NCBI GenBank assembly: GCA_001574975.1
Contig: KQ965809.1
Coordinates: forward strand, 72,154 to 103,285
Reading direction: 5' to 3'
DNA length: 31,132 bases
DNA from: Gonapodya prolifera JEL478
Lineage: Eukaryota; Monoblepharomycota; Monoblepharidomycetes; Monoblepharidales; Gonapodyaceae
Part shown: positions 2,454 to 30,014 of the stretch, in pieces
Layout of the letters: each line of letters starts with the position of its first letter
Numbering within the stretch: the stretch's first letter is position 1
Notes under the pieces: model-generated
Told to the model about the DNA's origin: nothing
Seen by the model: the letters and a program-made list of their open reading frames with translations, nothing else
Databases searched by the model: none
Made by a program: the position numbers and the translations under genes

Positions 2454-3788
2454 CTATCCAGCTTTTGGGTACCAAAAGTCACACGTCACACGTTTCGAAC
2501 ATTGTTGATCCGCTAATCCTTTCCTGACTTCTCCCTCCAAGGTCTTGACGCTTCTTCTCAGATCGCTTCCAATATCACTTTCTCCAAAGATACGACCACC
2601 ATCCACAATGTAAAACTTCAGCCAAATCGTCTCCGCCGGTTGCTGTTTTACGAAGTCTGCAAAAAATGTCCAAAAGTCCCTGTTGATCAACATGTCCGCC
2701 GGTCTCATCTCCATGATAAGCGTTAATTCCTCCAAGCATGGAAACAATGCGCCGATGGTCGTTGAAAAACAATGAAGGACGGAGGCGTGGTCGTCCCGCA
2801 ATGAATGCATTGAGAGCTCCAATGCCTTCAATTGTTTCGATACGGTAAACTCCTTCCCTGAAAGGGATTCCACGGAAAGCGAGGACCAATTCGAACGAGT
2901 GCCTATACTGATTTTCCTCAATCGCGGGAGAGAGGCAGATACATGCACAACCTGAATCAGACCAGGACTTTCCGATTGTCCTTTCCCCGTCACTTTGATT
3001 TCTTCCCATGGGCTCGTGCTTCTGTCAGCTCCGGTAAGGAGGGAAATACGGGCAAAAATGTCCTGTGCTGCAGGATTGTGAGTATCCCCCCCTGGGGCAC
3101 CGATTTCCAGAGACAGTCGTCGGAGATTCGGGAACAGGCGAGATCCGACATTGCAATGACGTGGGATCATAGTACTGCCAGCGCCAGAAGAAGTTTCCAC
3201 ATGAAGGTCCTCGATATCGGGGAAAGACCACCGTTTTGCAGATTGTGACATTTTCTCAAGGAGATTCTGTTCAATCCAAAGTTTCCGAGCGGCGGTGAAC
3301 GGAACCTTTTCGAGCCAGTCTGCGAACTCTTCGGTGTCTCTCCATGGCGCCTGGAGCTCCGTACTCACAGATGAAACTCCACAGAAGGCGAACTTGCCCA
3401 TTTCATCAAAGTCTTTGCTCAAACGAGCAATATCGACCTTTATAATGTCCGTTCCGCTGTCCACCATCAACTTCACGTTCGCAACAACTTTGCGACCTCC
3501 GACGAGGCTGCACCGGTCAGCTGGTTGAATGAACCAGTGATATCCACCGATTCGTTTGCGATCGTTGCATATCACTCCCCCCGAGTGCATCCAAATGATG
3601 TGGGTGATCGCGTCGACTCCGACATCAACGACGACGCCAGGTCGCCCATCGGGGAGGAACAGTCGCCCCACCAGTGTCTTCCATCGCTTTGAGACCCGGA
3701 CAGCGCATTGGAACAGGATGCGGGGTGGGAGGAGGTCGAGAATCTGTAGAATCAGTTCTTCCGCATGTGACTCGATAGAAGGCGCCAT
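2454..3788 (-). CDS. F-box protein, paralog 1 of tandem cluster
   Basis: Predicted 444-residue single-exon protein. Residues about 4-40 form an F-box: SIES, then EELILQILDLLPPRILFQ and VSKRWKTLVGRLF. F-box proteins bind Skp1 and recruit substrates to SCF ubiquitin ligases. The rest has leucine-rich, loosely repeated segments (LFPNLRRLSLEIG, LPRLRKISIG, FPCLEELTLIM) that may form a degenerate LRR-like binding surface. It ends in FWYPKAG, matching the tails of the next two paralogs. The start at 3788 is chosen because the paralogs begin a few residues before SIES; an in-frame ATG at 3824 would add 12 residues. The substrate is unknown. Confidence 0.75.
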   Translation of the reverse strand: MAPSIESHAEELILQILDLLPPRILFQCAVRVSKRWKTLVGRLFLPDGRPGVVVDVGVDAITHIIWMHSGGVICNDRKRIGGYHWFIQPADRCSLVGGRKVVANVKLMVDSGTDIIKVDIARLSKDFDEMGKFAFCGVSSVSTELQAPWRDTEEFADWLEKVPFTAARKLWIEQNLLEKMSQSAKRWSFPDIEDLHVETSSGAGSTMIPRHCNVGSRLFPNLRRLSLEIGAPGGDTHNPAAQDIFARISLLTGADRSTSPWEEIKVTGKGQSESPGLIQVVHVSASLPRLRKISIGTRSNWSSLSVESLSGKEFTVSKQLKALELSMHSLRDDHASVLHCFSTTIGALFPCLEELTLIMEMRPADMLINRDFWTFFADFVKQQPAETIWLKFYIVDGGRIFGESDIGSDLRRSVKTLEGEVRKGLADQQCSKRVTCDFWYPKAG

Positions 3789-3824
3789 CCTGCTGTGTCT
3801 GGACAGACACCCGCCCTCTGACAC

Positions 3825-4561: not shown

Positions 4562-5857
4562 TCAGGGTACCCAAAAGCCACACGATAGCACTCGTATTGG
4601 ATCGCTTTGATCCATTAACCCTTTCCTGACTTCTCCCTCAAAGCGTGTCAGAATTCTTCTGAGATTCCGACTAATGCCGTTCTCCCCAAAAACTTGACTG
4701 CCATCCACAATATGAAACTTGAGCCAAATCCTTCGGGCTGGTTGCTCCTTTATGAAATCCACGAAAGCTGTCCACAAGATCCTCCTGAGCAAAATATCTG
4801 TGGGTCTAATCAATACGATCAGTGTCAACTCCTCAGAGAACGGGAAAAAGGTTGTCAATGATTTTGAAAATGGACTAAGAATGGTCGCGGGATCATCTGG
4901 CAACGATTGGAGGGTACTTTCAAGCGCTGTCAATTGATTGGCACCAACAATCCCCGTTGGCATCCCAAATGCATCCGACACCAGAGGGGTCCAGTTGAGG
5001 AGGCTCGTGTTGAAAACCTTCTTCAATCGCGCTAAGGACGCAGAGATGCGCGCCGTCGCATGCAAAAAGGTCTGAAATTGTCCTCCAATTGGAAGTCTGA
5101 GCTCTTCGATGGTACAGATGCTAACTGCCGTTCCCGTAAGTAGGGAAATCACCGCAAGAACATCCTGCGCTGGATCTTGCAACCCGTCCGTAATCTCCAG
5201 TGATAGTCGGTGGAGCTTCGGAAAGAAACCTAATTCTCTATTCAAGCGAAGCGTGCGTAGCTGCAGGTTTTGCACATGCAGGTCCTTGATGCTGGGAAAA
5301 GACCACCGGTTTGCTCGAAATGCTAATTGCTCAACAACTCTCTGTTCAATCCAAACCTTCCCTGAACCAGTTATTGGAACCTTCTCGAGCCAGGTTGCCA
5401 GCTCGTCAATGCCTCTCCATGGTGCCCAGAAGTCCAATCTCACAGAAGAAACTCCACAGAATACGAAATATCCTTCTTCATCAATGGATTCGCATAAAGC
5501 GGCAATGTTGACTCTTGAAACGTCCGCGTCTGCCTCATCACCCATCAACTGGAGATTCGCCACGACTTTACATCCTTCGATGATGCTGCAGGAGTCTGCT
5601 GGCTCTATGGAATACCAGAAACCGTCTATTATTCGTTCAGGTTTGTTACGCTCCACGAGTTGCGCCCTCCGAATGACTGACTTTCCAATGTGCGCAACGA
5701 TGCCAGGTCGCCCATGGGGCAGGAAGAGACCCTCAACCAGTGTCTTCCATCTTGTCGAGACAAGGACGGCAGACTGGAAAAGGCTGCGGGGTGGGAGGAG
5801 GTCGAGAATCTGAAGAACGAGTTCGTCCGGAAGGGACTCAATCGAAAAGAGCGGCAT
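4562..5857 (-). CDS. F-box protein, paralog 2 of tandem cluster
   Basis: 431-residue single-exon protein, closely related to paralogs 1 and 3 throughout. The F-box at residues about 5-40 reads SIESLPDELVLQILDLLPPR, then LFQSAVLVSTRWKTLVEGLF, the usual Leu-Pro-x-Glu core. The remainder carries the family motifs FFPKLHRLSLEI, TIEELRLPI and FPFSEELTLIVLI and a Lys/Arg-rich end before the closing CGFWVP. No membrane segment or signal peptide is visible. By family it should be a substrate adaptor for an SCF ubiquitin ligase; the target is not known. The reading frame is intact and the start ATG is the first in frame. Confidence 0.8.
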   Translation of the reverse strand: MPLFSIESLPDELVLQILDLLPPRSLFQSAVLVSTRWKTLVEGLFLPHGRPGIVAHIGKSVIRRAQLVERNKPERIIDGFWYSIEPADSCSIIEGCKVVANLQLMGDEADADVSRVNIAALCESIDEEGYFVFCGVSSVRLDFWAPWRGIDELATWLEKVPITGSGKVWIEQRVVEQLAFRANRWSFPSIKDLHVQNLQLRTLRLNRELGFFPKLHRLSLEITDGLQDPAQDVLAVISLLTGTAVSICTIEELRLPIGGQFQTFLHATARISASLARLKKVFNTSLLNWTPLVSDAFGMPTGIVGANQLTALESTLQSLPDDPATILSPFSKSLTTFFPFSEELTLIVLIRPTDILLRRILWTAFVDFIKEQPARRIWLKFHIVDGSQVFGENGISRNLRRILTRFEGEVRKGLMDQSDPIRVLSCGFWVP

Positions 5858-5913
5858 CCTGTCCGCTCTTCGGGAGTAGTTTAGTCGCTGGGAATTCCCT
5901 GCAAGAAAGAAAG

Positions 5914-6075
5914 CGGGCCTTAGCTGTGCAATGAAACACTACGTTCCGCGGACCCCAAAGTTGCCTTCGAAGATCACCGACCACGGGAATCGAGTGCCAA
6001 GACGGAATATACGAAGGAAGAAAGTCACGTTGAAGTTGTACCTCGGAGTGCTACTATGCTATTTTGATGCTGTCG
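5914..6075. repeat. Conserved flank block, copy 2 of tandem F-box unit
   Basis: Sits 57 bp upstream of the F-box paralog 2 start. It shares ordered words with 4224-4390 and 7560-7690 (GTGCAATGAAACAC, GTTGCCTTCGAA, GCCAAGACGGA, CACGTTGAAGT). The region downstream of paralog 3 (about 6080-6200) also matches that downstream of paralog 2 (about 4460-4580), so the duplicated unit is about 1.6 kb. The 5858-6177 interval holds no gene. Confidence 0.7.
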
Positions 6076-6177: not shown

Positions 6178-7503
6178 TCAAATGCCCTCCGGGTACCAAA
6201 AGCCACACTTCAGTACTCTTTTCGGACCGCTTTGAACCATCAACCGTTTTCTGACTTCTCCCTCAAAGCGCTTGACGATACGTTTTACATCCCGATCAAT
6301 GTCCCTCTGTTCCAACACATGATCGCCATCCGCGCCTTTAAATTTCAGCCAAAACCTCCGCGCTGGCTGTTGCTTGATGAAATCTGCGAACGCTATCCAA
6401 AAGATCGTCTTGAGCAAAATTTTTGTGGGCTTCATCAGTATGATCAGTGTCAACTCCTCTAATAGCGGGAAAGAGGATGCCAGGGTCGTTGAAAATGGTG
6501 GGAAAACGGTCGCGGGGTTATATGGCAACGATTCAAAGGAAATTTGAAGCGCTTTCAATCGATTGGTCCCCACTGCAAACCCCGTTAATGCTGATCCAAA
6601 TGCAACCGACTGTGGAGGGTTCCAATTCAGGCGATCACTGGCGCTGACCATTTTCTTCAATCGCGGTAGGGATGCAGAGGTGCGCGCCATCGCTTGCAAA
6701 ACGTTTTGCAATGGTCCGTTAATCCCCAGTCTGAGCTCTTCAATGGTGCAGATGTCAGCTGCCGTTCCTGTAACACGTAAAACCATTGCCAGAACCACTT
6801 GCGCTGTATCGTCGCACTCTCCCGCAAATGCAAGCGATAGCCTTTGAAGCTTCGGGAACAGACTGGCTTCTCTGTTCACACCATCACTGGCCTCGGTAAG
6901 TGTGCGTGTGTAGAATTTCACATCGAGGTCCTTAATACCGGGGAAGGACCACCGTTTCCCGGAGAGCGTCATTTGGTGAAGGAGACTCTGTTCGGTCCAA
7001 ATCTTCTTTGAACCAGTAAATGGCGTCTTTTCGAGCCAGATTGCGAGGTCTTCCGGGTCTCTCCATGGCGGCCAGAACTCCAATCTGACAGAAGAAACTC
7101 CGCAGACTACGAAATGCCCTTCTTCCGCAATATTGTTGGATAAACCAGCAATGTTCACGTTCGAAACTTCAACCACATCATCAACCATCAACTGCAGATT
7201 CGCAACGACTTTTCGCCCATCGATGACGCTGCAGGCATCTGCTGGTTGTATAAAGTACTGAAAACCGTCGTATCTTCGTTCAGCTTTGTTCCCTTCCACT
7301 AATCGCTTCCGAAGGTTGTGATTGGATATTCCGATGTTCACAACGATACCAGGTCGCCCATGCGGCAAGAAGACCCGCCCGACCAGCGCATTCCATTGTT
7401 TCGAGACCAGAACGCAGGATTGGAAAAGGCAGAGGGGTGGGAGGAGGTCGAGAATCTGAAGAAAGAGTTCCTCCGGAAGCGACTCGATCGAAAAGAGTGA
7501 CAT
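6178..7503 (-). CDS. F-box protein, paralog 3 of tandem cluster
   Basis: 441-residue protein if started at the ATG at 7503, which gives MSLFSIESLPEELF, aligning with paralog 2 (MPLFSIESLPDELV). The frame stays open upstream to 7743, but that extension has no counterpart in the paralogs and is probably the promoter/5' UTR. F-box at residues about 5-40, then the family's leucine-rich segments (LFPKLQRLSLAF, TIEELRLGI, FPLLEELTLII) and the ending GFWYPEGI. Expected role: SCF adaptor with unknown substrate. Intact frame, no introns seen. Confidence 0.8.
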   Translation of the reverse strand: MSLFSIESLPEELFLQILDLLPPLCLFQSCVLVSKQWNALVGRVFLPHGRPGIVVNIGISNHNLRKRLVEGNKAERRYDGFQYFIQPADACSVIDGRKVVANLQLMVDDVVEVSNVNIAGLSNNIAEEGHFVVCGVSSVRLEFWPPWRDPEDLAIWLEKTPFTGSKKIWTEQSLLHQMTLSGKRWSFPGIKDLDVKFYTRTLTEASDGVNREASLFPKLQRLSLAFAGECDDTAQVVLAMVLRVTGTAADICTIEELRLGINGPLQNVLQAMARTSASLPRLKKMVSASDRLNWNPPQSVAFGSALTGFAVGTNRLKALQISFESLPYNPATVFPPFSTTLASSFPLLEELTLIILMKPTKILLKTIFWIAFADFIKQQPARRFWLKFKGADGDHVLEQRDIDRDVKRIVKRFEGEVRKRLMVQSGPKRVLKCGFWYPEGI

Positions 7504-7559
7504 CTTGTTCACTCGTAAGGAACACTCTAGTCGCTGCGAATCCCACGCAAGAATGAGAG

Positions 7560-7690
7560 CGAGGCCCACCAGTGCAATGAAACACCCACGTTGCCTTCGA
7601 AAATTACAACCGACCTCAGGTAACGAGCGCCAAGACGGATACAACGCCACGTTGAAGTCATACCTCGAAATGCTGCTACGCTGGTTTATT
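7560..7690. repeat. Conserved flank block, copy 3 of tandem F-box unit
   Basis: Lies 57 bp upstream of paralog 3 and matches the blocks at 5914-6075 and 4224-4390 in order (CCAGTGCAATGAAACACC, GTTGCCTTCGAAAATTAC, GCCAAGACGGATACAACG). Position and conservation suggest the shared promoter/5' UTR of the family. Confidence 0.65.
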
Positions 7691-7742
7691 TCTCCAGTAC
7701 TAATAGGAGAGCGCACGGACAGCAACTTCGATTGCCCGAGCA

Positions 7743-10733
7743 CTAAAATGACACACTATCTTTTCCCAGAAGGGCCCGCCTCTCAATAATTGTCCTACTG
7801 AAAGAGCTGAAATAGTTCCCAACGAATATGTCCGCCAACAGGCATAGCTCCATATCCAACAAGGCCAGCTCCACTTGATCTAAAGTTCGCTCTCTCCACA
7901 TACGACAGGTTTTCAGTCGTGTAACAGAGTTACTTTCAGGAGATTCATTGCTCGAGAGGTAGCATAGGTGCTCAAAAAGATTGCTTGTTGTAACTGCGCG
8001 ACTCAGTGTTATTCCTTCCGAGGAAACCTGGGAGCTCGAAACATTGAGAGCCCGCCATATTTCATTCATTATGCGATCCATCATCCTATTGCTCGCCTTG
8101 TTCGTCGCCACAAACAACGTGAACGTAACATTTTGAACTGGCCCGTCACTTCGCGCCACCTTGCTCCTTCCGACATGGTCCACTACCGCTCTGGCAACAA
8201 CGCGCCCGACCCTTTCGAAGGAGGGATAACAGCTCTCGCGCAGATCGAGCTCCTTGATGGCATTGCATTTCTTTTTGTAGTCGCCCCTCCGAACATGAGT
8301 TGTCACGATCAACGAAGTCCCGTTCTGCGACACGGCGCTCATTCTAGCAAGCAGGTCTTCCGCGAGTATGCGAAGATCAGGTCGCCATTTCATTCCATGG
8401 ATTATCTCAGCGTACGCTTTGACGTCCATGTAATCTTGGAACTGCTCGAGTGGGTAGGGCTGTTGCGGTTTGCCGAATCCATGAAGCCAAAATGCCGACC
8501 CCAAGGCGATAACCCGTCGTTCTTCATTCGATGGACCTTCAAAGGCTCTCTTGATGCCATCTGTTGAGAGGAATTGCAGACGTTCCGACGTCACGACACC
8601 TCCGTGTCGAACATTCAAAGTCGACCCATAGTACTGCTCCAGTTGATTTTCGTTAGTGGCCGAAGCGATAGGATTGCTCATGAGTGTACCAAATTCCAGC
8701 GAGCCGGGATTGTCATAGTGCAGGCCCATCAAGTTCTCCATCGAAATCGTGCCACAGCCTTGGTCGGCCTCGTAATCCAAATCGAAGTACTTCTCCCACG
8801 CCTCCCACCTATAGTCGTCCACATCAAACGAAAACGCCCACTTTTCGTCACCATCACCTCCACCTTCTCTCCGGTACCCAACTCTGGGCAGCAACAGCGT
8901 CCGCCCGAGCTCTCGCGCGACAGCACACGCGGAGCGGAACCCGATGAGTTGGTTGTTGAGCTGTTCCCATGGCATGTAGGCCAAAAATCGTAAGTCCACG
9001 TGCCTAGTCGGGAGTGCAAGGTGAAGAAGGGACACGAGGTGCGAGGTAGTGCGACGGGGGAAGGATGGATGCAAGGAAGGCGTGTTGAGTGACGCATAAC
9101 GAGTGCGGGAGAGTGAGCACAATGTCCGAAGTCCTGGGTTTGGGTGTGGTGAAGCGTCCACGATTGTGAAGGAAAGTTTGGTATCGGTTTTTCCAAGACC
9201 CCGAGTCAAAAGTGCCCGCGACACAAAGTCGACAGGTCCTTGTTCGGGAATTGTGTAATTCAAAATCAAAATACCGCAATAAGGAAGGTCTCGAAGGAGC
9301 ATGTCGCGTTGATTTGAGGAATCGTCCACAGTCATGTTAAGCCGCTGGAAGCTCGCGACACCCTCCAAAGAGGGGAAAGCCTGGAACATATCATCAAAGT
9401 CCCCCATTAGACAAACAGACTGCGTCTGTCCTAACATTTCTGTATCTTCCGAAGTTCGTGTTACCCTCGGATGACCGGGCATCGAAATGTTCCAAAAGCT
9501 CGAAAAGAATATTCGAGTCCGATCATATAATGGAAGCACGAGATTTGTGTGCTCAGAAAATTGATCCTTATGTCGTGCGCCATGGCCGTCGTCGTACTGG
9601 AAGAAGGCGGGGTGAAGTCCCAGTACAGCTTTTCGAAAGACTACGATTCCACTGATATCATCGACAGGAAGTTGGTCGGTGGAGCCATCCTGAAGGGACG
9701 CTGCCAGTCGACCAGCAGCCAATGAAGAAGATACCAGTGTGAAGAAGGTTTCCAACCCGGGCAGCACACTCTTCGCCTGCGAGGGCTTGCCGAGAATGCA
9801 TCGTACGCGCTCCCTCAACGAATCCTCTCCTCGTATGAGCTTCAATTTTTCACTCCCAGATGTCGGCGGTTTCTCGTACGCATGTATCACCAGAATTCCA
9901 AGCCGCACCCCAACCGCACTCCCAGCGACCACGGACAGGTTCAGCCCCATAAGTATAGGCAGCTGGAGCGGGGTATAGTCTCTCACGGTGTACATGTAGT
10001 CCCGCGGTGGGTACCGTTTAGGTGGCAAGAAAACGTGGAACACACGAGTCCCCAGGGCCGTAGTGCTGTTGTCATGCGCCGTCTCCATGAATACAGTCGA
10101 GGCATGACACGCGTAAGCGTACATCTCGCGCTTCGATCCCAAGGGACCCGGGTTGGTGCGAACTGGCTTCCCTTCGCACTTCAGCTGGGCGTACCCCTTC
10201 GCATCCTCCTCCTCGGTCGGAGCCACCGTGCTGCACGACGAGTCCGCCCACGCGGTATCTTGAGTGGATGGCGGACAAAACTCGGTCATTATAAATGGGT
10301 CGACGGGTTGATACTGCTCGTCCGGCTGGTTTGTATGAGGTCCGAAGGGAATGAGCCATTGGAACCGTGTCCATGGTGGTAGGGGGAGTTTCGGGAGCGC
10401 AACGCTTTCGTCTTCTGTTCGTCCCTGCAGTGAGATTGGCAACTGTCAGAATTATGAGAGTCCTGATCACCAATTGAACGCACGCACCGCTTGCGCCGGA
10501 CCACGGCCGCCACTTCCCTCCTGCTCGAGTACGTCCTGTACACCCTTCCGCTCTCTGACGCGACCAGCTGGCGGAACGAAGCCAGGGTTATCTTCGAACC
10601 AGGACTTGTCCGTTCTATCACCCCCGTGGCCACCGAAGTCGGACAGGTAAGGCCCGATGAACGCTCGCGATAGAAAGAGAACTGATGTGGCGATTGTGGT
10701 GACGAGTGCGAGGCGCTGGTAGCGGCGGTTCAT
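7743..10733 (-). CDS. Type II membrane glycosyltransferase with O-fucosyltransferase domain
   Basis: Two exons, 10733-10488 and 10424-7743, joined over a 63-bp GTGCGT..CTGCAG intron in phase 0; predicted 975 residues. Exon 1 supplies a short basic cytosolic end and one hydrophobic anchor (residues about 8-30, LALVTTIATSVLF), typical of a Golgi type II enzyme. The C-terminal part (from about residue 560) carries O-fucosyltransferase-like hallmarks: WEQLNNQLIGFRSACAVA (the donor-site N-Q-L type motif), THVRRGDY at about residue 791 and ADIFVGNYFSSFSRTIIERR near the end. This family transfers fucose or related sugars from GDP-sugars to proteins or glycans in the secretory pathway. The N-terminal half (about 100-540) is a separate domain with GIVVFRKAVLGL and a possible GT61-like pattern; that part is a weak guess. 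The low-complexity link at about 9000-9200 may hide a cryptic intron. Confidence 0.7.
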
Positions 10734-10995: not shown

Positions 10996-12861
10996 TTACA
11001 GGGCGAGGGCAGCAAGCGCAACTCCCGCCAACGCGCTCAGGGACCCTCCAACACTGATGGACGAACTGCGCGGGGCGGCACCGGGCTTAGCGGCGCCGCT
11101 GGTAGCAGCTGCGGGAGGGGCGGCGGCGGGGGACGCGGCGGTGGGGCCGGCAGTCGCGGTGGCGGCCTTGGTGCCGGAACTGCTGGCGGAGGACGCGGCG
11201 GGGGCGGAGCCGGTGCCAGAGCAAGCTAAAAGAGAAAAAGGAGGTAGAGGTGAGACGTGAAGCTCGACTCGGTTCAGAGGCACACGGAAGGAAGAACTCA
11301 CAAGTCCTGTAGGGGCTGGTATCACCTAAGCACGTGGCAATGTTCACGGCCGTGTAGTTGTAGCTCCTAATGGTGGCGAAGATGAAGGGCGCGGTCTGGG
11401 CAGAGCAGGGCCAGAGGTCCGAGTTCACCGCGACGTAGGTCGAGGTCCCGTTGGGAAGCTGGGTGAAAGCCGTGATGTAGTTTTGGAGAATGCCAGTCTG
11501 GCACGCGGCGGCGTTGTTGGACGAGGCGTACATGTAGTCGCCAGAGTCGAGGTTGTAGCCGACGGGCTGTGGTGGAGGAGGGCGGAGAGGGGAAGAGGAC
11601 GTGAGTGGGTTGCGCGTGTTGGGTGGGAAAAGAAGGGGAGTACGTACGATGTATCCTTGGGACTTGACAGTGTTGTAAGCCGACTGAGGGGTGTCGATGG
11701 GCAAGTAGATGTCTGCAAATCGCAAATCCATCCGAGAGTCAGTCAACTTGCACGTATCCATTTCTCCCACAACTGCAACAAGCACTCACATTTGGGCGCC
11801 TTCTGGGTGTACTGGAACACAGCATTGCAGTCGTCCGACAGCTGCTGGATGATTTGGGCGTCGGTGGCGTTCAGGATCGAGACCGTGGTGGGCCATTCTA
11901 GTTGAGTTTCAAATGAGACGGAGTAGGAGAAAAGTGCAGTGGCAGGAGGCACTTACGAAGACCGATAAGAGCGCCGGCGTTGGAGACTTGGGTGAGGGGC
12001 ACGTTGGACGTGACCTGAAAACGACAGAACACGTGAGCCCCCTTGCACGACATTGACTCGATCGCATGTACGCTACTCACGTCCTTCAAGTACCTTGTGA
12101 TCGCGAAGAAGGTGAGCGCCGAAGCGTTGGTTCCGCCAGCGATCACGTTCGAGAACAATGTCGCGGTGTTGGCGCTGGTGAGGGGTGGTGGGAGAGCAAG
12201 GGGTGTGGTGTTGGCTCGTGGTGCTCTTGTGATGGCGGAAGAGAGCAAAGGGGAGAAAAGGGAGACTCACGCAGGTCCGCCGGCCCAGAAGACGGAGACT
12301 TGGCCACTTTTTCAGGGAGGGGGGTTAAGGAAGAGGTAAGAACAGTAGAACAGAGAGAGAGTAAGGGAAGAAGATATCACATACGTTTTGCACTGGTTGG
12401 GGTAGTAGGATGGGTTGGCTGGAGGTGGGATAGGGATGTTTATGAAAGGGAGGTTTTGTTAACAGGGCCTTTTGTGTATCTCCGACAGAAAAGCACAGGA
12501 AAACAAAAATGGGGGAGTCCGGGTCCAGGTAGCGTATCGCACTCGAGCGGTGGTCTCGGTATCGCTCTGCGATGAGTCTTCCACTTCGCATGGCATTGGC
12601 CTCCTCGGTCGGTGGTGTCACACCTCAGGCCTCCTTCTCCCTCCACCAGAGTACTTCGCTGCGAGGAATTCGCCTCCTGTTGTCCGACTCAGATCGTCGC
12701 AGTCGCCAAGGTCGCCAAGTGACCCTTTCCGTGATTTCACCCGACACTCAAGCCAGACGATGGGTTTTGCGCCACTCACTGAAGCCGTATGTGCCCGTCT
12801 GCGCCATGGCAGCGGAGACGAAGGCCAACATCCCGACGAGGGAAGCTACGATGGGTGCCAT
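10996..12861 (-). CDS. Secreted CE4 (polysaccharide deacetylase)-like pseudoenzyme, copy 1
   Basis: Nine exons: 12861-12780, 12418-12385, 12306-12271, 12174-12081, 12014-11957, 11897-11790, 11712-11648, 11566-11302, 11225-10996; 323 residues. A signal peptide ends near residue 21 (FVSAAMAQ). The body follows the NodB/CE4 order seen in chitin deacetylases, but catalytic positions are lost: TFDDGP becomes VFWAGGP (44-50), the zinc His-xxx-His becomes LQWPTT (101-106), and RPPYG becomes YLPIDT (140-145). NLDSGDY (164-170) still matches the later D-x-x-D-W region, with Tyr for Trp. An Ala/Ser/Pro/Thr-rich linker leads to a C-terminal hydrophobic stretch (LSALAGVALAALAL), as in a GPI signal. Likely a cell-surface protein that binds rather than cuts chitin-type glycans (inference). 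Every splice phase agrees with the divergent paralog at 13576. Confidence 0.75.
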
Positions 12862-13575
12862 TTCTAAGAGGTGCTGGCAGATTTGGGGGTATGAGGCGGG
12901 GGCAGAGGCGGGGCTGTAGCCACACGAGACTGCACCTTCTAAGACGGATCGGGCGAGTCCTGGAGTAGGTGGTAGAGCGAGGCCGAGCGAAGAGCGGTGA
13001 GGTCAGCGAGTGGCCTGTGATATGGTCACCTGTGCTTGGCTGAAGAAAGGGCCAATTTCGTCAGGGTGGTGCCCGGGTTGTGGCGCAGCAAAATCATTCT
13101 AAATGCTTCTCCCAATTATGCCACTGCAAGTTTCGCATCGCTCATCCTCTGCGTTGTTGAAAGATAAGCCGGAAATATGATGTACTGAATTATTAGTGAC
13201 GGTATCTGGCTTTATCTTCGACCCATGCAGACATGCTCAAATATTCACTTTCAATTATGCCGTATCGCCGTCCGAATGCTGACGACATGTCGATCGAAAT
13301 GCAAATGCAAGCCGTGTGTTGCCAGGCTTCCAAAAAGGGACGTGTGTGGCACAGCACTGCGGTGCGCCTCTGCCTTCTCTACCCAAACTCAAAATTCCAT
13401 AACACGTCGCCTTCTTCGCTACATTCGCACTGCACCTGAGATCCCACGCTCCCTCCACCCGTGAGTCGCCCTAGCAACGGAACTCTCCCCTCCACCCGCC
13501 CTGCGCTTCCGCGCCTGAAGCATTTCACGCCGACGCTGACCCTTTCATTAACGCCACCGTCACACAGACACTCAA
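12862..13575. promoter_or_regulatory. Shared divergent intergenic region of the CE4-like pair
   Basis: 714 bp separate the two divergently read start codons. No coding exon was recognised. It must hold both promoters, which would allow co-regulation, but no specific element was identified by eye. Confidence 0.45.
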
Positions 13576-15341
13576 ATGACTCGATTGCTCGTCACTCTAC
13601 TGGCGGCCGTGCTTACGGCGACGACGGTCCTCGCTCAGTTCTCCTACGGTGAGTGGCGATTGCGCCGTGCGGTCGGCTCCCATCAGGGAGCGATTTCTCT
13701 TCTCCTACCGGCGAAAGGAACCCGGAAAGACACGGAAGCTGGACCACGACGTCAACCTTTCCTCTGGAAGACTGTATCTCCCGGAAGTTTTCTCTTACTG
13801 GACGTTTATTCTCCCTGTTTCGCTGCTCACCTTTCATGTGACGCTCCTTCTCATGATTCCGCCCGTCTCTTTTAGATAACCCCACATACTTCCCCTCGGC
13901 CTGCAAAAAGTACGTCTTACTGTCCTCTTCCTTCCTACCCCGTTCTAACCTCCCTTTGTCACCCCTGTCACCTCCACCAAAGGCAGGGCCAAATCGCAGT
14001 CATATACGCCGAAGGACCCTCGTAAGTCCCTTGTCTCTCTCTTCCTCACTTCCGCCTTTTCCTCACTCTCGTCCAACGAAACTCCCGCTGCCCGTTGCCC
14101 ACTTGGACGATAGGAAATACACCTCGCTCATCTACCAAAACCTCGTCGCAGCCGGCCTGCCCGCGGCAAACATGAGTTTCTTCCCCGTTACGACATACCT
14201 CAAAGATGTAAGTACTCGCCTTTTTTGGCTCTGGGTCCCCGCCTTTGTCTTTTCGCGGTTGTCGGTGCTAACAAACAGCCTTTCGTACTAATCCAATTGG
14301 GTAACAGGTCACGAGTAACGTTCCCCTCAGCCAAGTCGGAAAGGCCGGCGCGTTCATCGGAATGCGTGAGTCCCCATATGCCCCTTTGGCTCCCACACGC
14401 TCTCAACCCGACGCCTCTAACCGCTGTTCTACCTTGACACCTCCAGGATGGACCACGCAACAAAAACTCAACAGCCTATCCGCAGCCCAGATCGCCACGC
14501 AGCTCGAATCCGACTGCACACAGATCATGACCTACACAGGAAAGGCTCCCAAATGTGAGACATCTGATCGTGGCTGTGTGCTCGAGGCACGAGTCGTTGA
14601 CCCTTGGGTTAAATCCACACAGACATCTTCCTCCCCCGTGACCAAGTCGACGAGACTTCGTACAACGCCGTCAAGGCGCAAGGATATGTCGTGAGTCTTC
14701 CCTACTCCCATGTACCTCTCTTTCCCCTCTTACTCACCTTTCCTCCTCCCTTAACCCCACCCAGCCTGTCGCGTACAACCTCGACTCCCTCGACTACACC
14801 TTCAACGGCACTGACAACGCCACTTGCATCAACGGCGTCCAAACCGCCTACATCGCCACCCTCGGCCAGCTCACCGCAGGGTCGGCCTACTGGATCGCTC
14901 TGCAGAGGGACTTGATCCAGTGCACGGTCGATTCGGCAGCCACGGTGTACACGACGATCAAGAACTATGGGTACACGTGGGTCGATATTGGCACGTGCCT
15001 TGGTGACACGAGCCCGTACAAGACTTGTGAGCCGAGTAATCACCATCCCCCTCTCACCCCGAACCCACTGACCGTGAACCTCTCAACCACCCCCACCCAC
15101 CACAGCCTGCACCGCCTCGGGTGCCTCGGCCCCGCCCCCCGCCAGCGCTGCAGCCAGCAGCGGCGCGTCGGCCACCAAGGCGCCCAGCGCGTCTCCGTCC
15201 GCCACGACCGCCGGCGGCGCCGCTGCTGCGACTGGAACCGCCGCCGCTAAGCCCGGCGCAGCTGCCCCTGCGCGTTTCTCGTGGTCCGTGTACGCTACTC
15301 TGGCCATCGCCGTTATCATTGCGGCGGTGGTGAGGTTGTAA
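13576..15341 (+). CDS. Secreted CE4 (polysaccharide deacetylase)-like pseudoenzyme, copy 2
   Basis: Nine exons: 13576-13648, 13876-13909, 13983-14021, 14114-14207, 14308-14365, 14447-14554, 14623-14690, 14765-15026, 15106-15341; 323 residues, the same length as copy 1. Signal peptide of about 20 residues (LTATTVLAQ). CE4 order is recognisable: GQIAVIYAEGPS where active enzymes have TFDDGPS (so Asp-Asp is Ala-Glu at 45-46), MSFFPVTTYL for ATFFVTGN, GMRWTTQQKLNSLSAAQI for the G-x-H-T-x-x-H-x-x-L helix (both His lost), GKAPKYIFLPRDQ for the G-x-x-P-x-x-x-R-P-P-Y region, and YNLDSLDY retained. The final L-x-H motif is IALQRD (202-207). The Ala/Ser-rich tail ends in a hydrophobic helix (VYATLAIAVIIAAVVRL) that anchors it by GPI or as a membrane segment. 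Deacetylase activity is not expected. Confidence 0.75.
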
Positions 15342-15716
15342 AGAAAACGAGGAAGGACTGTATCAAGGAGGGCTGAGTCCACGTACGTGAAGTCGTATAC
15401 CCCGTTGTTGGAGACGCCGCGCGTGTGCATGTGCGTGTACGTGGGCGTGGGCGTGGGCGTGGGCGTGGGCGTGGGCGTGGGCGTGGGCGTGTGCGCAATG
15501 AACTCATGAACATTCACAAAAGTACTTGCATTTGAAGTATGTCACGAAACGAGCGAGCTTCAATAAAGTAGAATTTGCAATTCTTCGTACCGGCGTCCGG
15601 CTCGCAATTGTGGTTGGAGAGAAGACCGTAGTGTAGTTGCATGATCAAGTCATGTTCCACCAACACTTCGACAAAATTTGCAATCCACCACACCCATCCA
15701 CCCTCACCGTCCAACC
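15342..15716. other. Intergenic region with possible poly(A) signal
   Basis: No gene seen. It contains the GTGGGC array described separately and an AATAAA at about 15562, which could serve the upstream CE4-like gene 220 bp away. The ZNF511-like start codon follows at 15717. Confidence 0.4.
15441..15488. repeat. GTGGGC hexamer microsatellite, 8 units
   Basis: Eight perfect GTGGGC units, flanked on both sides by imperfect GTGTGC/GTGCGT variants. G-rich on this strand, so it could form a G-quadruplex (inference). It lies 100 bp after the CE4-like stop codon. Confidence 0.9.
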
Positions 15717-22195: not shown

Positions 22196-22220
22196 CCCCC
22201 CCCCCCCCCCCCCCCCCCCC
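22196..22220. repeat. Poly-C tract, 25 bases
   Basis: Uninterrupted run of 25 C. Its true length is uncertain in a draft assembly. It sits between the SET gene and the end of decayed copy A. Confidence 0.9.
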
Positions 22221-24725: not shown

Positions 24726-25210
24726 GTTCGCTAAAACCGATTATCAAGTGTGAGCGTGGCGCAGGTGTTCCGTTTAAACCATTTCATCCAGTTGTGTGGG
24801 GGAATGTGCAGCATGCTGATCGCATGCATTAACGTCGCAGAAAGCTCTTCCGCTTATTTACGAATCATCCACGCACTTTCCAGGAGAGCACACCAATTAT
24901 CTCGCTGTAATAGAGTTACTTTTACTCTTGTCATTCAAACGCGTCATCTATGCTGCGACGTCTACTGGCACCAGCTCCGACACCGCCAAGGCCTAGAATA
25001 CGAGCTGAGGAGAGTCTTTCAGCAATAGAGACGCGTTCAGCTCGTATTGAGTCACCTAGTGCCTCCCTCCACTCGTGGGGGCTGAGCAAGCGGCAGCGGG
25101 TCATCGTCACCCGGACCGGAAGTACCAGCAACTTAAGTGTCGCCCACCACACAAACAGTCTCCCACCGGATACATTCTTCTCATTTTCATACACACGCGG
25201 CGCCCAACAG
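24726..25210. other. Region upstream of the 2OG oxygenase
   Basis: No separate gene. From 24950 the oxygenase frame is open upstream of its chosen start, so this region holds its promoter/5' UTR or, if translation starts at 24950, an 87-residue N-terminal extension. Confidence 0.5.
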
Positions 25211-26419
25211 ATGGTCGTCCCGGTCTTTTCCATCCCAACAATCGATGTGTCCGTTCTGCGCGACCCCACGCCGGACCAGTCCGCGCTCGCCGCCGTCGCT
25301 GCAGAGATGCGATCCGCTGCCACTACTTCCGGGTTCTTTCAAATCGTCAACCACCCGCTGGACGCCGACCTGATCCGGAAGACGTTTGACTACTCGCGAC
25401 AATTCTTCGCGCTCCCGCTCGACTCCAAGCTCGCCGCGTCGGCGCACATGTCTGGGTATGAGCCTTTTGGAAACACTACCGTTCAGAAGGGAACCCCGCC
25501 GGACGCCAAGGAAGGATTCTTCGTCATGAAGGAGGGCTCCTCACTTCCACACATGGGGATCGCGGGGAACGTGTGGCCTACTGACCGTGAGTGGCACATC
25601 ACGGTCTTCCCGGCGACAGTTGTATCGGGTTCTTGCGTACTGTCGAACAGATTTTGAACTTTCTTTTCATTCTGTGTGATTACTACAGCGTCGCTCCCGC
25701 CCGACTTCAAATCCACCATCCTGGAGTACTGGACGCGCGTTCAACAGCTGTCTGTGCAGATGTACAGGCTTCTGGCGCTATCTTTGGAGCTTCCCGCGGA
25801 CTACTTTGACAGGCTCTTGGTGAATGACATTTCCCCGTTGCGCCTCCTACATTATCCGCCGACGCCCCAGGATGCGCTCGGAAGGCAGAAGGGAATCGGA
25901 GCTCATACAGGTCAGTGCCTTTGTTGTGCTTGGGGGTATTTGACGCATTGTTGTTGACACCCTTGACCTCGGCTCGGGGAACTTAATACACCATGTTCAG
26001 ACTACGGCGGCCTCACGCTTCTCGTGCAAGACAGTGTCGGCGGGTTGCAGATCCACCCAACCGGTTATGTGGAGGACGACGAGGCATGGCAAGACGTTCC
26101 ACCTGTCGTCGTGGAGGCCGACGCGACACCCGCAATCGTATGCAACATTGGCGACTTCATTCAACTGTGGACCAACGGGCTGTACAAATCAACCATGCAC
26201 CGCGTGATCAACCGGTCGGGCAAGGATCGGTACTCGATGGCATTCTTGTCGAACATGGATCTGGACATCGAGGTCGAGCCCATCGAAAAATGCGTGGAGT
26301 TAACGGGGGGGAAAAAGCTGTTCGAGAAGATTACTGCGGGGCAGCATGTCTTTGCGAGGTTCAAGTGGAGTTTGGAGCAGAGCAAGAAGCTGCAGGATGG
26401 CACGGCTGATGCCGCTTGA
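25211..26419 (+). CDS. 2-oxoglutarate/Fe(II)-dependent oxygenase, isopenicillin N synthase-like
   Basis: Three exons, 25211-25586, 25689-25910 and 26001-26419; 338 residues, a normal length for the family. The N-terminal DIOX_N-like part reads FSIPTIDVS, then SGFFQIVNHPLD and YSRQFFALPLDSKLA. The iron ligands are H198 and D200 (GAHTDYGGLTLLVQD) and H266 (MHRVINRSGKDRYS), and R276/S278 form the RxS that binds 2-oxoglutarate. The D200 codon is split by the second intron. Such enzymes hydroxylate or desaturate small molecules, often in secondary metabolism or hormone pathways; the substrate cannot be told from this sequence. The frame continues upstream to an ATG at 24950, giving an Arg-rich MLRRLLAPAPTPPRPRIR start that could be a mitochondrial presequence; 25211 is preferred by family length. 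No biosynthetic cluster is evident around it. Confidence 0.85.
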
Positions 26420-28402: not shown

Positions 28403-28680
28403 TCAATTTGTGTCAAGAAACATTTCCAAGGAGTTCTTGTTTCGCGCTAGGACACGAAGCGACACATTTGGATTTGCGTCAAGAACGGCGAGGAACGGAA
28501 GCATTGAGGGGGTATACTCGTCAGTGCCCTTGTCTTCCCAGATAAACATGACGCGAATCGTTCGTAGTTGAGGGACACTTGCCTGGGCAATAGCTTCCGT
28601 GATGCGATGAAAAGGCCTGGACGTGGAAGTTCGTCAATTTAGCCAAACTCGAGAGTCTCCAAGCTGTACGGCTCTTTTTC
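28403..28680 (-). pseudogene. Unnamed minus-strand gene family, copy D (C-terminal fragment)
   Basis: Encodes SVPQLRTIRVMFIWED, then LPFLAVLDANPNVSLRVL and NSLEMFLDTN with stop at 28403. This parallels copy B FPRLREIQVAVFWTE and LALLALVDACPSASLCVF and copy C FPRLRELQVWF. Upstream, LAKLTNFHVQAF resembles copy B LGHINVFHVGVF, but a T-run near 28610 puts it in another frame. Homology ends at about 28680, where the Sel1-repeat ORF on the other strand begins its recognisable sequence. Confidence 0.55.
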
Positions 28681-30014
28681 GAATTGGGGTGATTTACAAT
28701 CGAGGGTTGGGAGGAGTTTCGAAGGATTTGTGGGAATCTGCATATTGGTGGGAAAAGGCTGCGGAGCAAGGAATTACTGAAGCACAGTTTAGTGTTGGAT
28801 ATTGCTACTACAAAGGAGAAGGAGTGATGGAGGACTTGACAAGGGCAGTGTTTTGGTACACAAAGGCTGCGGAGCAAGGAGATGCCAACGCTCAGTTTTA
28901 TCTCGGAGTTTCCTACAAACATGGAATAGGGGTGGGGAGGGACGATAAAATGGCAGTGTTTTGGTACACAGAGGCTGCAGAGCAAGGAATTACTGAAGCA
29001 CAGGTTAATATTGGACTTATCTACTACAATGGAGAAGGTGTGGAAAAGGACTTTGAAATGGCACTGTTTTGGTGGACCGAAGGTGCGGAGCAAGGATTTG
29101 CCGAAGCACAGGTTTGTCTTGGAAGTTACTACTACAATGGTGGAGGGGTGGAAAGGGACCGGGAAATGGCAGTGTTTTGGTACACCAAGGCCGCAGAGCA
29201 AGGAATCGTCGATGCTCAGCGGAATCTTGGAATTTGCTATGATAACGGTGAAGGGGTGGGAACAGACCAAGAAATGGCAGTGTTTTGGTGGACAAAGGCC
29301 GCAGAGCAAGGAAATGCCAGTGCACAGGAGAGACTTGGATTTTCCTACAACAATGGAAAAGGGGTGGAGAAAGACCANATGGCAGTCTTTTGGTGGACCA
29401 AGGCCGCAAAGCAAGGAGAGGCCAGTGCACAGTTCTGTCTTGGAAGTTACTACGCCATTAGAGAAGGGGTGGAAAAGGACTTGGAAATGGCAGTCTTTTG
29501 GTGGACCAAGGCCGCAGAGCAAGGATATGATGATGCACAATTCNNTCTTGGACTTTGCTACGGTAGTGGAGAAGGGGCAGAAAAGGACTCTAAATTGGCT
29601 GTATTTTGGTACACAAAGGCCGCGGTGCAAGGAAAGGTCGATGCACAGCATAATCTTGGAATTTGCTATGATAACGGTGAAGGTGTGGAAAAAGACCAGA
29701 AAATGGCAGTATTTTGGTGGACAAAGGCTGCGGAACAAGGCAATGTTAAATCACAGAAGAGCCTTGGATCTTGCTACGAGAACGGTGAAGGTGTGGAAAA
29801 GAATGATGAACTTGCATTGCATTGGTGGACCAAAGCAGCGGAGCAAGGTGACGTTGATATGCAGTACAAAGTTGCAGTGTGCTATGAGAACGGCAAAGGT
29901 GTTGATGTTGACGTGGACCACAGGAAATTTTGGTACACCAAGGCGGCAGAGCAAGGATATCACCAAGCCAAGTTCAATTTGGGACTTTGCGACATTGATG
30001 GAAATTTGTTTTAG
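28623..30014 (+). CDS. Sel1-like repeat protein, 5' end unresolved
   Basis: About 460 residues made almost wholly of Sel1-like (TPR-related) repeats of 36 residues: twelve units with the core FWWTKAAEQG followed by A-Q-x-x-LG-x-x-Y-x-x-GEGVEKD, plus partial units at both ends. Sel1 repeats fold into alpha solenoids that scaffold protein complexes, for example in ER-associated degradation or signalling. No ATG lies at the start of the open frame (it begins after a TGA with GTG at 28623; the first Met is about 200 bases in), so an upstream exon or 5' truncation is likely. Units are very similar at DNA level, pointing to recent internal expansion. N bases at about 29378 (one codon short compared with other units) and 29544 mark assembly doubt. 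It ends in LCDIDGNLF. Confidence 0.8.
   Translation: MEVRQFSQTRESPSCTALFRIGVIYNRGLGGVSKDLWESAYWWEKAAEQGITEAQFSVGYCYYKGEGVMEDLTRAVFWYTKAAEQGDANAQFYLGVSYKHGIGVGRDDKMAVFWYTEAAEQGITEAQVNIGLIYYNGEGVEKDFEMALFWWTEGAEQGFAEAQVCLGSYYYNGGGVERDREMAVFWYTKAAEQGIVDAQRNLGICYDNGEGVGTDQEMAVFWWTKAAEQGNASAQERLGFSYNNGKGVEKDXMAVFWWTKAAKQGEASAQFCLGSYYAIREGVEKDLEMAVFWWTKAAEQGYDDAQFXLGLCYGSGEGAEKDSKLAVFWYTKAAVQGKVDAQHNLGICYDNGEGVEKDQKMAVFWWTKAAEQGNVKSQKSLGSCYENGEGVEKNDELALHWWTKAAEQGDVDMQYKVAVCYENGKGVDVDVDHRKFWYTKAAEQGYHQAKFNLGLCDIDGNLF

Follow-up and report, generated by a model that had tools for sequence, protein, structure and literature searches.

What can a protein of the CE4 (NodB, chitin deacetylase) fold still do when none of the residues that carry out deacetylation is left in it? 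The question is raised by two neighbouring genes, hereafter called A and B, in a stretch of 31,132 nucleotides from Gonapodya prolifera JEL478 (GenBank assembly GCA_001574975.1, contig KQ965809.1, positions 72,154 to 103,285 of the forward strand), hereafter called the window, along which all positions below are counted. The products of A and B are probably paralogous, surface-displayed CE4 pseudoenzymes, which would be tethered and act by contact, without deacetylation. An original prediction had described them, from the same sequence, as a conserved family of secreted and anchored pseudo-deacetylases; CE4 fold, inactivity, secretion and anchoring are all properties predicted from the sequence.

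Gene models and CE4 ancestry

Genes A and B lie in opposite orientation, pointing apart, and are of fungal type. Gene A (12861..10996, minus strand) has nine exons (12861-12780, 12418-12385, 12306-12271, 12174-12081, 12014-11957, 11897-11790, 11712-11648, 11566-11302 and 11225-10996) and gene B (13576..15341, plus strand) also has nine (13576-13648, 13876-13909, 13983-14021, 14114-14207, 14308-14365, 14447-14554, 14623-14690, 14765-15026 and 15106-15341), each model coding for 323 amino acids in a frame open from start to stop. The splice sites were picked by eye with both genes and the reading frame in view, as had been done for the original prediction, whose coordinates, splice pattern and pair of 323-residue products are present in the sequence under these hand-chosen models. 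All 16 introns are of the GT..AG type, the intron phases (1,2,2,0,1,1,0,1 over the eight introns of each gene) are the same in A and B, exons 2, 4, 5 and 6 are equal in length, and the acceptor of intron 2 is AAG in each gene. As the sites were chosen from both genes together, the models depend on each other to some extent. The region between the two start codons (12862..13575, 714 base pairs (bp) from ATG to ATG, start codons excluded) is possibly a shared promoter.

The two predicted proteins are 45 % identical in a MAFFT alignment, with 142 of 328 columns identical in a pairwise alignment and 47.4 % identity across 228 aligned domain positions, and six Cys residues stand at aligned positions. 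The segment TCLGDTSPY at the end of the domain (11304-11335, minus strand, in A; 14993-15024, plus strand, in B) is identical in both, as is the stretch YLKDVTSNVPL. Only A and B themselves were returned when each was searched against the window (tblastn, E up to 1), with no further copy of either.

The CE4/NodB homology of B is strongly indicated. B matched Pfam PF01522 above the cut-off (E = 1.4e-5, 25.5 bits, gathering score 23.1), and in phmmer searches it matched the chitin deacetylase 2iw0, which we take to be the Colletotrichum lindemuthianum enzyme, over residues 33-240 with the motif positions in order (E = 9.5e-10), followed by 7bly (E = 3.2e-7), whose name says no more than that it is a contig product of Aspergillus niger, and 2y8u (E = 2e-5), named as a chitin deacetylase. 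The NCBIfam model PdaB matched B with E = 8.4e-9 and A with E = 9.6e-5, the latter at 22.2 bits, far under the model cut-off of 237.4. A profile built from A and B together matched 2iw0 with E = 5.5e-10, and 2y8u dropped to 0.00066. The homology of A alone is weakly indicated, and its CE4 membership depends mainly on kinship with B, because its own matches are weak. The earlier claim that both proteins are CE4-related is thus borne out for B, and for A through B; the comparison with PF01522 that had been proposed as a check gave a match for B and none for A.

The former active site

The catalytic positions were mapped with the printed 2iw0 alignments and the A-B alignment, for A also with the A+B profile, the roles of the CE4 catalytic and metal residues being taken from section 5.1 of PMC5855634. 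Motif 1 (TFDDGP) reads VFWAGGP in A and VIYAEGP in B, the general-base and metal Asp residues being replaced by Ala47-Gly48 and Ala45-Glu46, respectively; it lies in exon 3 of both genes (FWAGGP, 12271..12306, minus strand, placed with the A-B alignment and the A+B profile; IYAEGP, 13983..14021, plus strand, placed with the 2iw0 alignment). Motif 2 (HxxxH), coded across exons 5 and 6 with the intron between them (11790..12014, minus strand, in A; 14308..14554, plus strand, in B), reads QWPTT in A and RWTTQ in B, Gln102 and Thr106 or Arg100 and Gln104 standing in place of the two zinc His residues. In the motif 3 (RxPY) region, YLPIDT in A and FLPRDQ in B, the Arg is replaced by Tyr140 and Phe138, the motif Pro is kept and the Tyr is lost. 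Exon 8 (11302..11566, minus strand, in A; 14765..15026, plus strand, in B) codes for motif 4, DxxD(W/Y), which is kept as NLDSGDY in A and NLDSLDY in B, for the last LxHD, which has become AVNSD and ALQRD with Ser208 and Arg206 at the position of the motif 5 general-acid His, and, near its end, for TCLGDTSPY.

The replacements quoted in the original prediction for TFDDGP, HxxxH, the RxPY region and the final LxHD are therefore all in the sequence, and YNLDS-x-DY is kept as had been said. Its wording that every catalytic motif was replaced is right for the six catalytic and metal residues, which are replaced in both proteins, and too broad for motif 4 and the motif 3 Pro, which are kept.

There is no His at all in the 323 + 323 residues of A and B, which leaves neither protein a way to form a His-based metal site at another position. 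When the three sense frames of each gene were scanned with six patterns, a scan that leaves motifs spanning exon junctions outside, no CE4 motif was found in place and in frame; the strings that resemble a motif, 13 in number (ten HxxxH and one each of DDG, RxPF and LxHD), all lie at another place or in another frame. On the established mechanism, metal-dependent CE4 deacetylation is very unlikely in A and B, because neither the metal ligands nor the base nor the acid are present.

Constraint and possible functions

Despite the lost active site, A and B seem to be under amino-acid constraint. The ratio of nonsynonymous to synonymous substitution (dN/dS) between them, estimated by NG86 over the 228 aligned domain codons, is 0.47 (0.33-0.67 in 300 bootstrap replicates), a rough value because of saturation at a dS of about 1.05 (0.79-1.47), and their identity at codon positions 1, 2 and 3 is 0.58, 0.68 and 0.50. 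With the splice signals trimmed, six of the eight intron pairs gave z values of −1.5 to 1.0 against 200 Markov resamples and resembled each other no more than these controls, while introns 1 and 3, with 3.0 and 2.7, did; untrimmed, all eight scored higher than the average of 50 mononucleotide shuffles, intron 4 by very little.

The hydropathy of the two chains makes it plausible that they are secreted and tethered at the C-terminus. The first 21 residues (mean hydropathy 1.76 in A and 1.57 in B) and the last 18 (1.97 and 2.20) are hydrophobic, and the most hydrophobic 17-residue stretch starting within residues 23-290 has a mean of 1.33 in A and 1.30 in B. The hydrophobic end is coded by exon 9 (10996..11225, minus strand, in A; 15106..15341, plus strand, in B) behind an Ala-rich linker of low complexity with Ser, Gly, Pro and Thr.

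A chitin-deacetylase-like ancestor probably gave rise to a duplicated pair without catalytic residues, which a C-terminus of the glycosylphosphatidylinositol (GPI) type would most likely hold at the membrane or the wall. There the two proteins would work by contact, in wall structure or by binding chitin or chitosan glycans, and not by deacetylation; a wall- or membrane-tethered contact role is suggested because the core, motif 4 and the tail are kept. Chitin or chitosan is possibly the ligand, this being the natural guess from the ancestry.

Several observations weigh against this explanation. Searched alone, A gave no Pfam match even with E values of up to 10 allowed, and its match to 2iw0 (E = 0.005) covers only residues 91-242. 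The saturation noted above makes the dN/dS value rough, and some A-B similarity may remain in the introns, which makes the difference between exons and introns less telling. The residue that replaces the former catalytic one is common to A and B at one of the six positions only, where Ala stands for the general-base Asp, and because the replacements differ at the other five these positions show no new site common to both proteins. From residue 251 onwards the tail consists of Ala to 36-38 % and of Pro to 10 %, with only 22-27 % Ser + Thr where a GPI-anchored fungal wall protein would be expected to have a Ser/Thr-rich linker, B ends in Val-Val-Arg-Leu, which is not ideal as a GPI signal, and a Pfam search found no carbohydrate-binding module in A or B.

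The conserved family of the original prediction consists at present of two paralogues, A and B. In the collection viral_contigs, none of 39 stretches was confirmed with the A1 alignment and two peptide patterns, and two DNA patterns gave 0 matches each; in genome_contigs none of 20 stretches was confirmed with 251 residues of B and six patterns; in plasmids, tblastn with 247 residues of B returned three records (24.6-26.0 % identity) and with 249 residues of A none. Absence from these collections says little, because by their description they hold no fungal genomes. A more far-reaching form of the explanation, which is tentative and less probable than the general one, would make A and B members of a lineage-specific, His-free, wall-anchored CE4 family in which the fold now serves as a non-catalytic glycan receptor or wall block, with YLKDVTSNVPL and TCLGDTSPY as a new functional surface.

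Among the other explanations, the main rival is a regulatory or partner role of A and B beside active chitin deacetylases or chitin synthase complexes, in which the dead domain would bind either an active relative or its substrate and steer it. The core and motif 4 are kept around the replaced active site, as such a role would have it, and the divergent arrangement makes joint expression possible; the window, however, contains no other A/B copy at the tblastn threshold given above, and this role is considered unlikely.

Distinctly less probable is an enzyme function of another kind on the NodB fold, with a chemistry that needs no metal. It has a precedent in the NodB-fold enzyme 3CL6, which lacks both motif 1 Asp residues and the second motif 2 His and is described as non-metal-dependent in the relevant part of PMC10967932. 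According to that part, however, 3CL6 keeps the Asp of motif 4 and the His of motif 5, whereas A and B have neither the motif 5 His nor any other, and they agree on the replacing residue at only one of six positions. A similarly low probability is given to soluble or shed decoys that would keep a host or prey from detecting chitin fragments, as the original prediction had proposed in part. The secreted-type N-terminus indicated by hydropathy would suit a decoy, but the hydrophobic C-termini suggest tethering, and the anchor, if real, disfavours a diffusible protein.

It is very improbable that A and B are decaying copies on their way to pseudogenes: they do differ at five of the six former catalytic positions, but in the models both frames run uninterrupted between start and stop codon, all 16 introns keep GT..AG and the dN/dS of 0.47 has an upper bound of 0.67. 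A resemblance to CE4 by chance, to which the weakness of A when searched alone might point, is hardly credible given that B scores over the PF01522 gathering score and matches 2iw0 at 9.5e-10 across residues 33-240 with the motifs in order, and that the A+B profile reaches 5.5e-10.

Elsewhere in the window, a tandem array of GCGTGG/GCGTGT type (15421-15495) begins 80 bp downstream of gene B. On the minus strand, three tandem open frames of F-box type (2454-3824, 4562-5938 and 6178-7755) gave F-box-like Pfam matches with E = 8.1e-5 (under the cut-off), 1.6e-7 and 3.9e-6, and a long open frame at 7746-10445 matched GDP-fucose protein O-fucosyltransferase (PF10250, E = 6.6e-11). Further on there are a run of 25 C (22196-22220), a likely spliced 2-oxoglutarate/Fe(II) dioxygenase gene (24914-26419, plus strand; DIOX_N 1.2e-22 and 2OG-FeII_Oxy 2.9e-18 in separate open frames) and 108-bp tandem repeats coding for Sel1 repeats (28745-29848, plus strand; PF08238, E = 2.7e-69 on 28614-29375); the opposite strand carries a long open frame there (28521-29750). 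A transfer RNA (tRNA) scan of the window found no tRNA genes.

Comparison with known systems

Neither the A/B pair nor any pseudo-CE4 protein of a chytrid turned up in the literature searched, a scope outside which most subscription journals lie. The relevant parts of the papers on Batrachochytrium deacetylase-like genes (PMC3569864) and on a CE4 protein of the Rhizoclosmatium secretome (PMC12115818) do not mention loss of catalytic residues. Genome comparisons tally CE4 genes as chitin deacetylases, one example being a figure legend in PMC12115818 that deals with chytrids. A constrained pair without catalytic residues suggests that some of the proteins covered by such CE4 counts may produce no chitosan.

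Three deacetylases of Cryptococcus neoformans have a predicted GPI anchor, and these proteins deacetylate wall chitin, according to the relevant part of PMC6415152; A and B share with them the fungal CE4 ancestry and may also share such an anchor. The chitin deacetylase 2iw0 is the best sequence match of B, including APKY, NLDxxDY and CLGD, but 2iw0 keeps the CE4 motif residues, of which A and B have none of six. BA0150 of Bacillus anthracis (BaPdaB, PDB 4M1B) is a CE4 protein that lacks the Asp-His-His metal triad and is termed a pseudoenzyme in the parts of PMC10967932 and PMC5855634 that deal with it. A and B resemble it in the missing triad and in matching the PdaB profile, A far under the cut-off, whereas BA0150 keeps the conserved catalytic Asp and His (PMC5855634, in the same part) and A and B do not.

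Inactive CE4 proteins are thus already known, most clearly ECU11_0510 of the microsporidian Encephalitozoon cuniculi (PDB 2VYO), which has neither the two motif 2 His residues nor the catalytic Asp nor the Arg of motif 3 and does not deacetylate chitin oligomers, according to the relevant parts of PMC10967932 and PMC5855634. A and B have additionally lost the metal Asp and the motif 5 His, neither of which is among the losses listed for ECU11_0510 in those parts. They also differ from ECU11_0510 in being a duplicated pair in divergent orientation, whose products have tails of low complexity and hydrophobic ends. Because B matched ECU11_0510 with E = 0.11 only (phmmer), the active site was presumably lost independently in the two. 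The A/B pair adds a case to those known and, beside ECU11_0510, offers another eukaryotic one in which to ask what role the CE4 fold has without catalysis.

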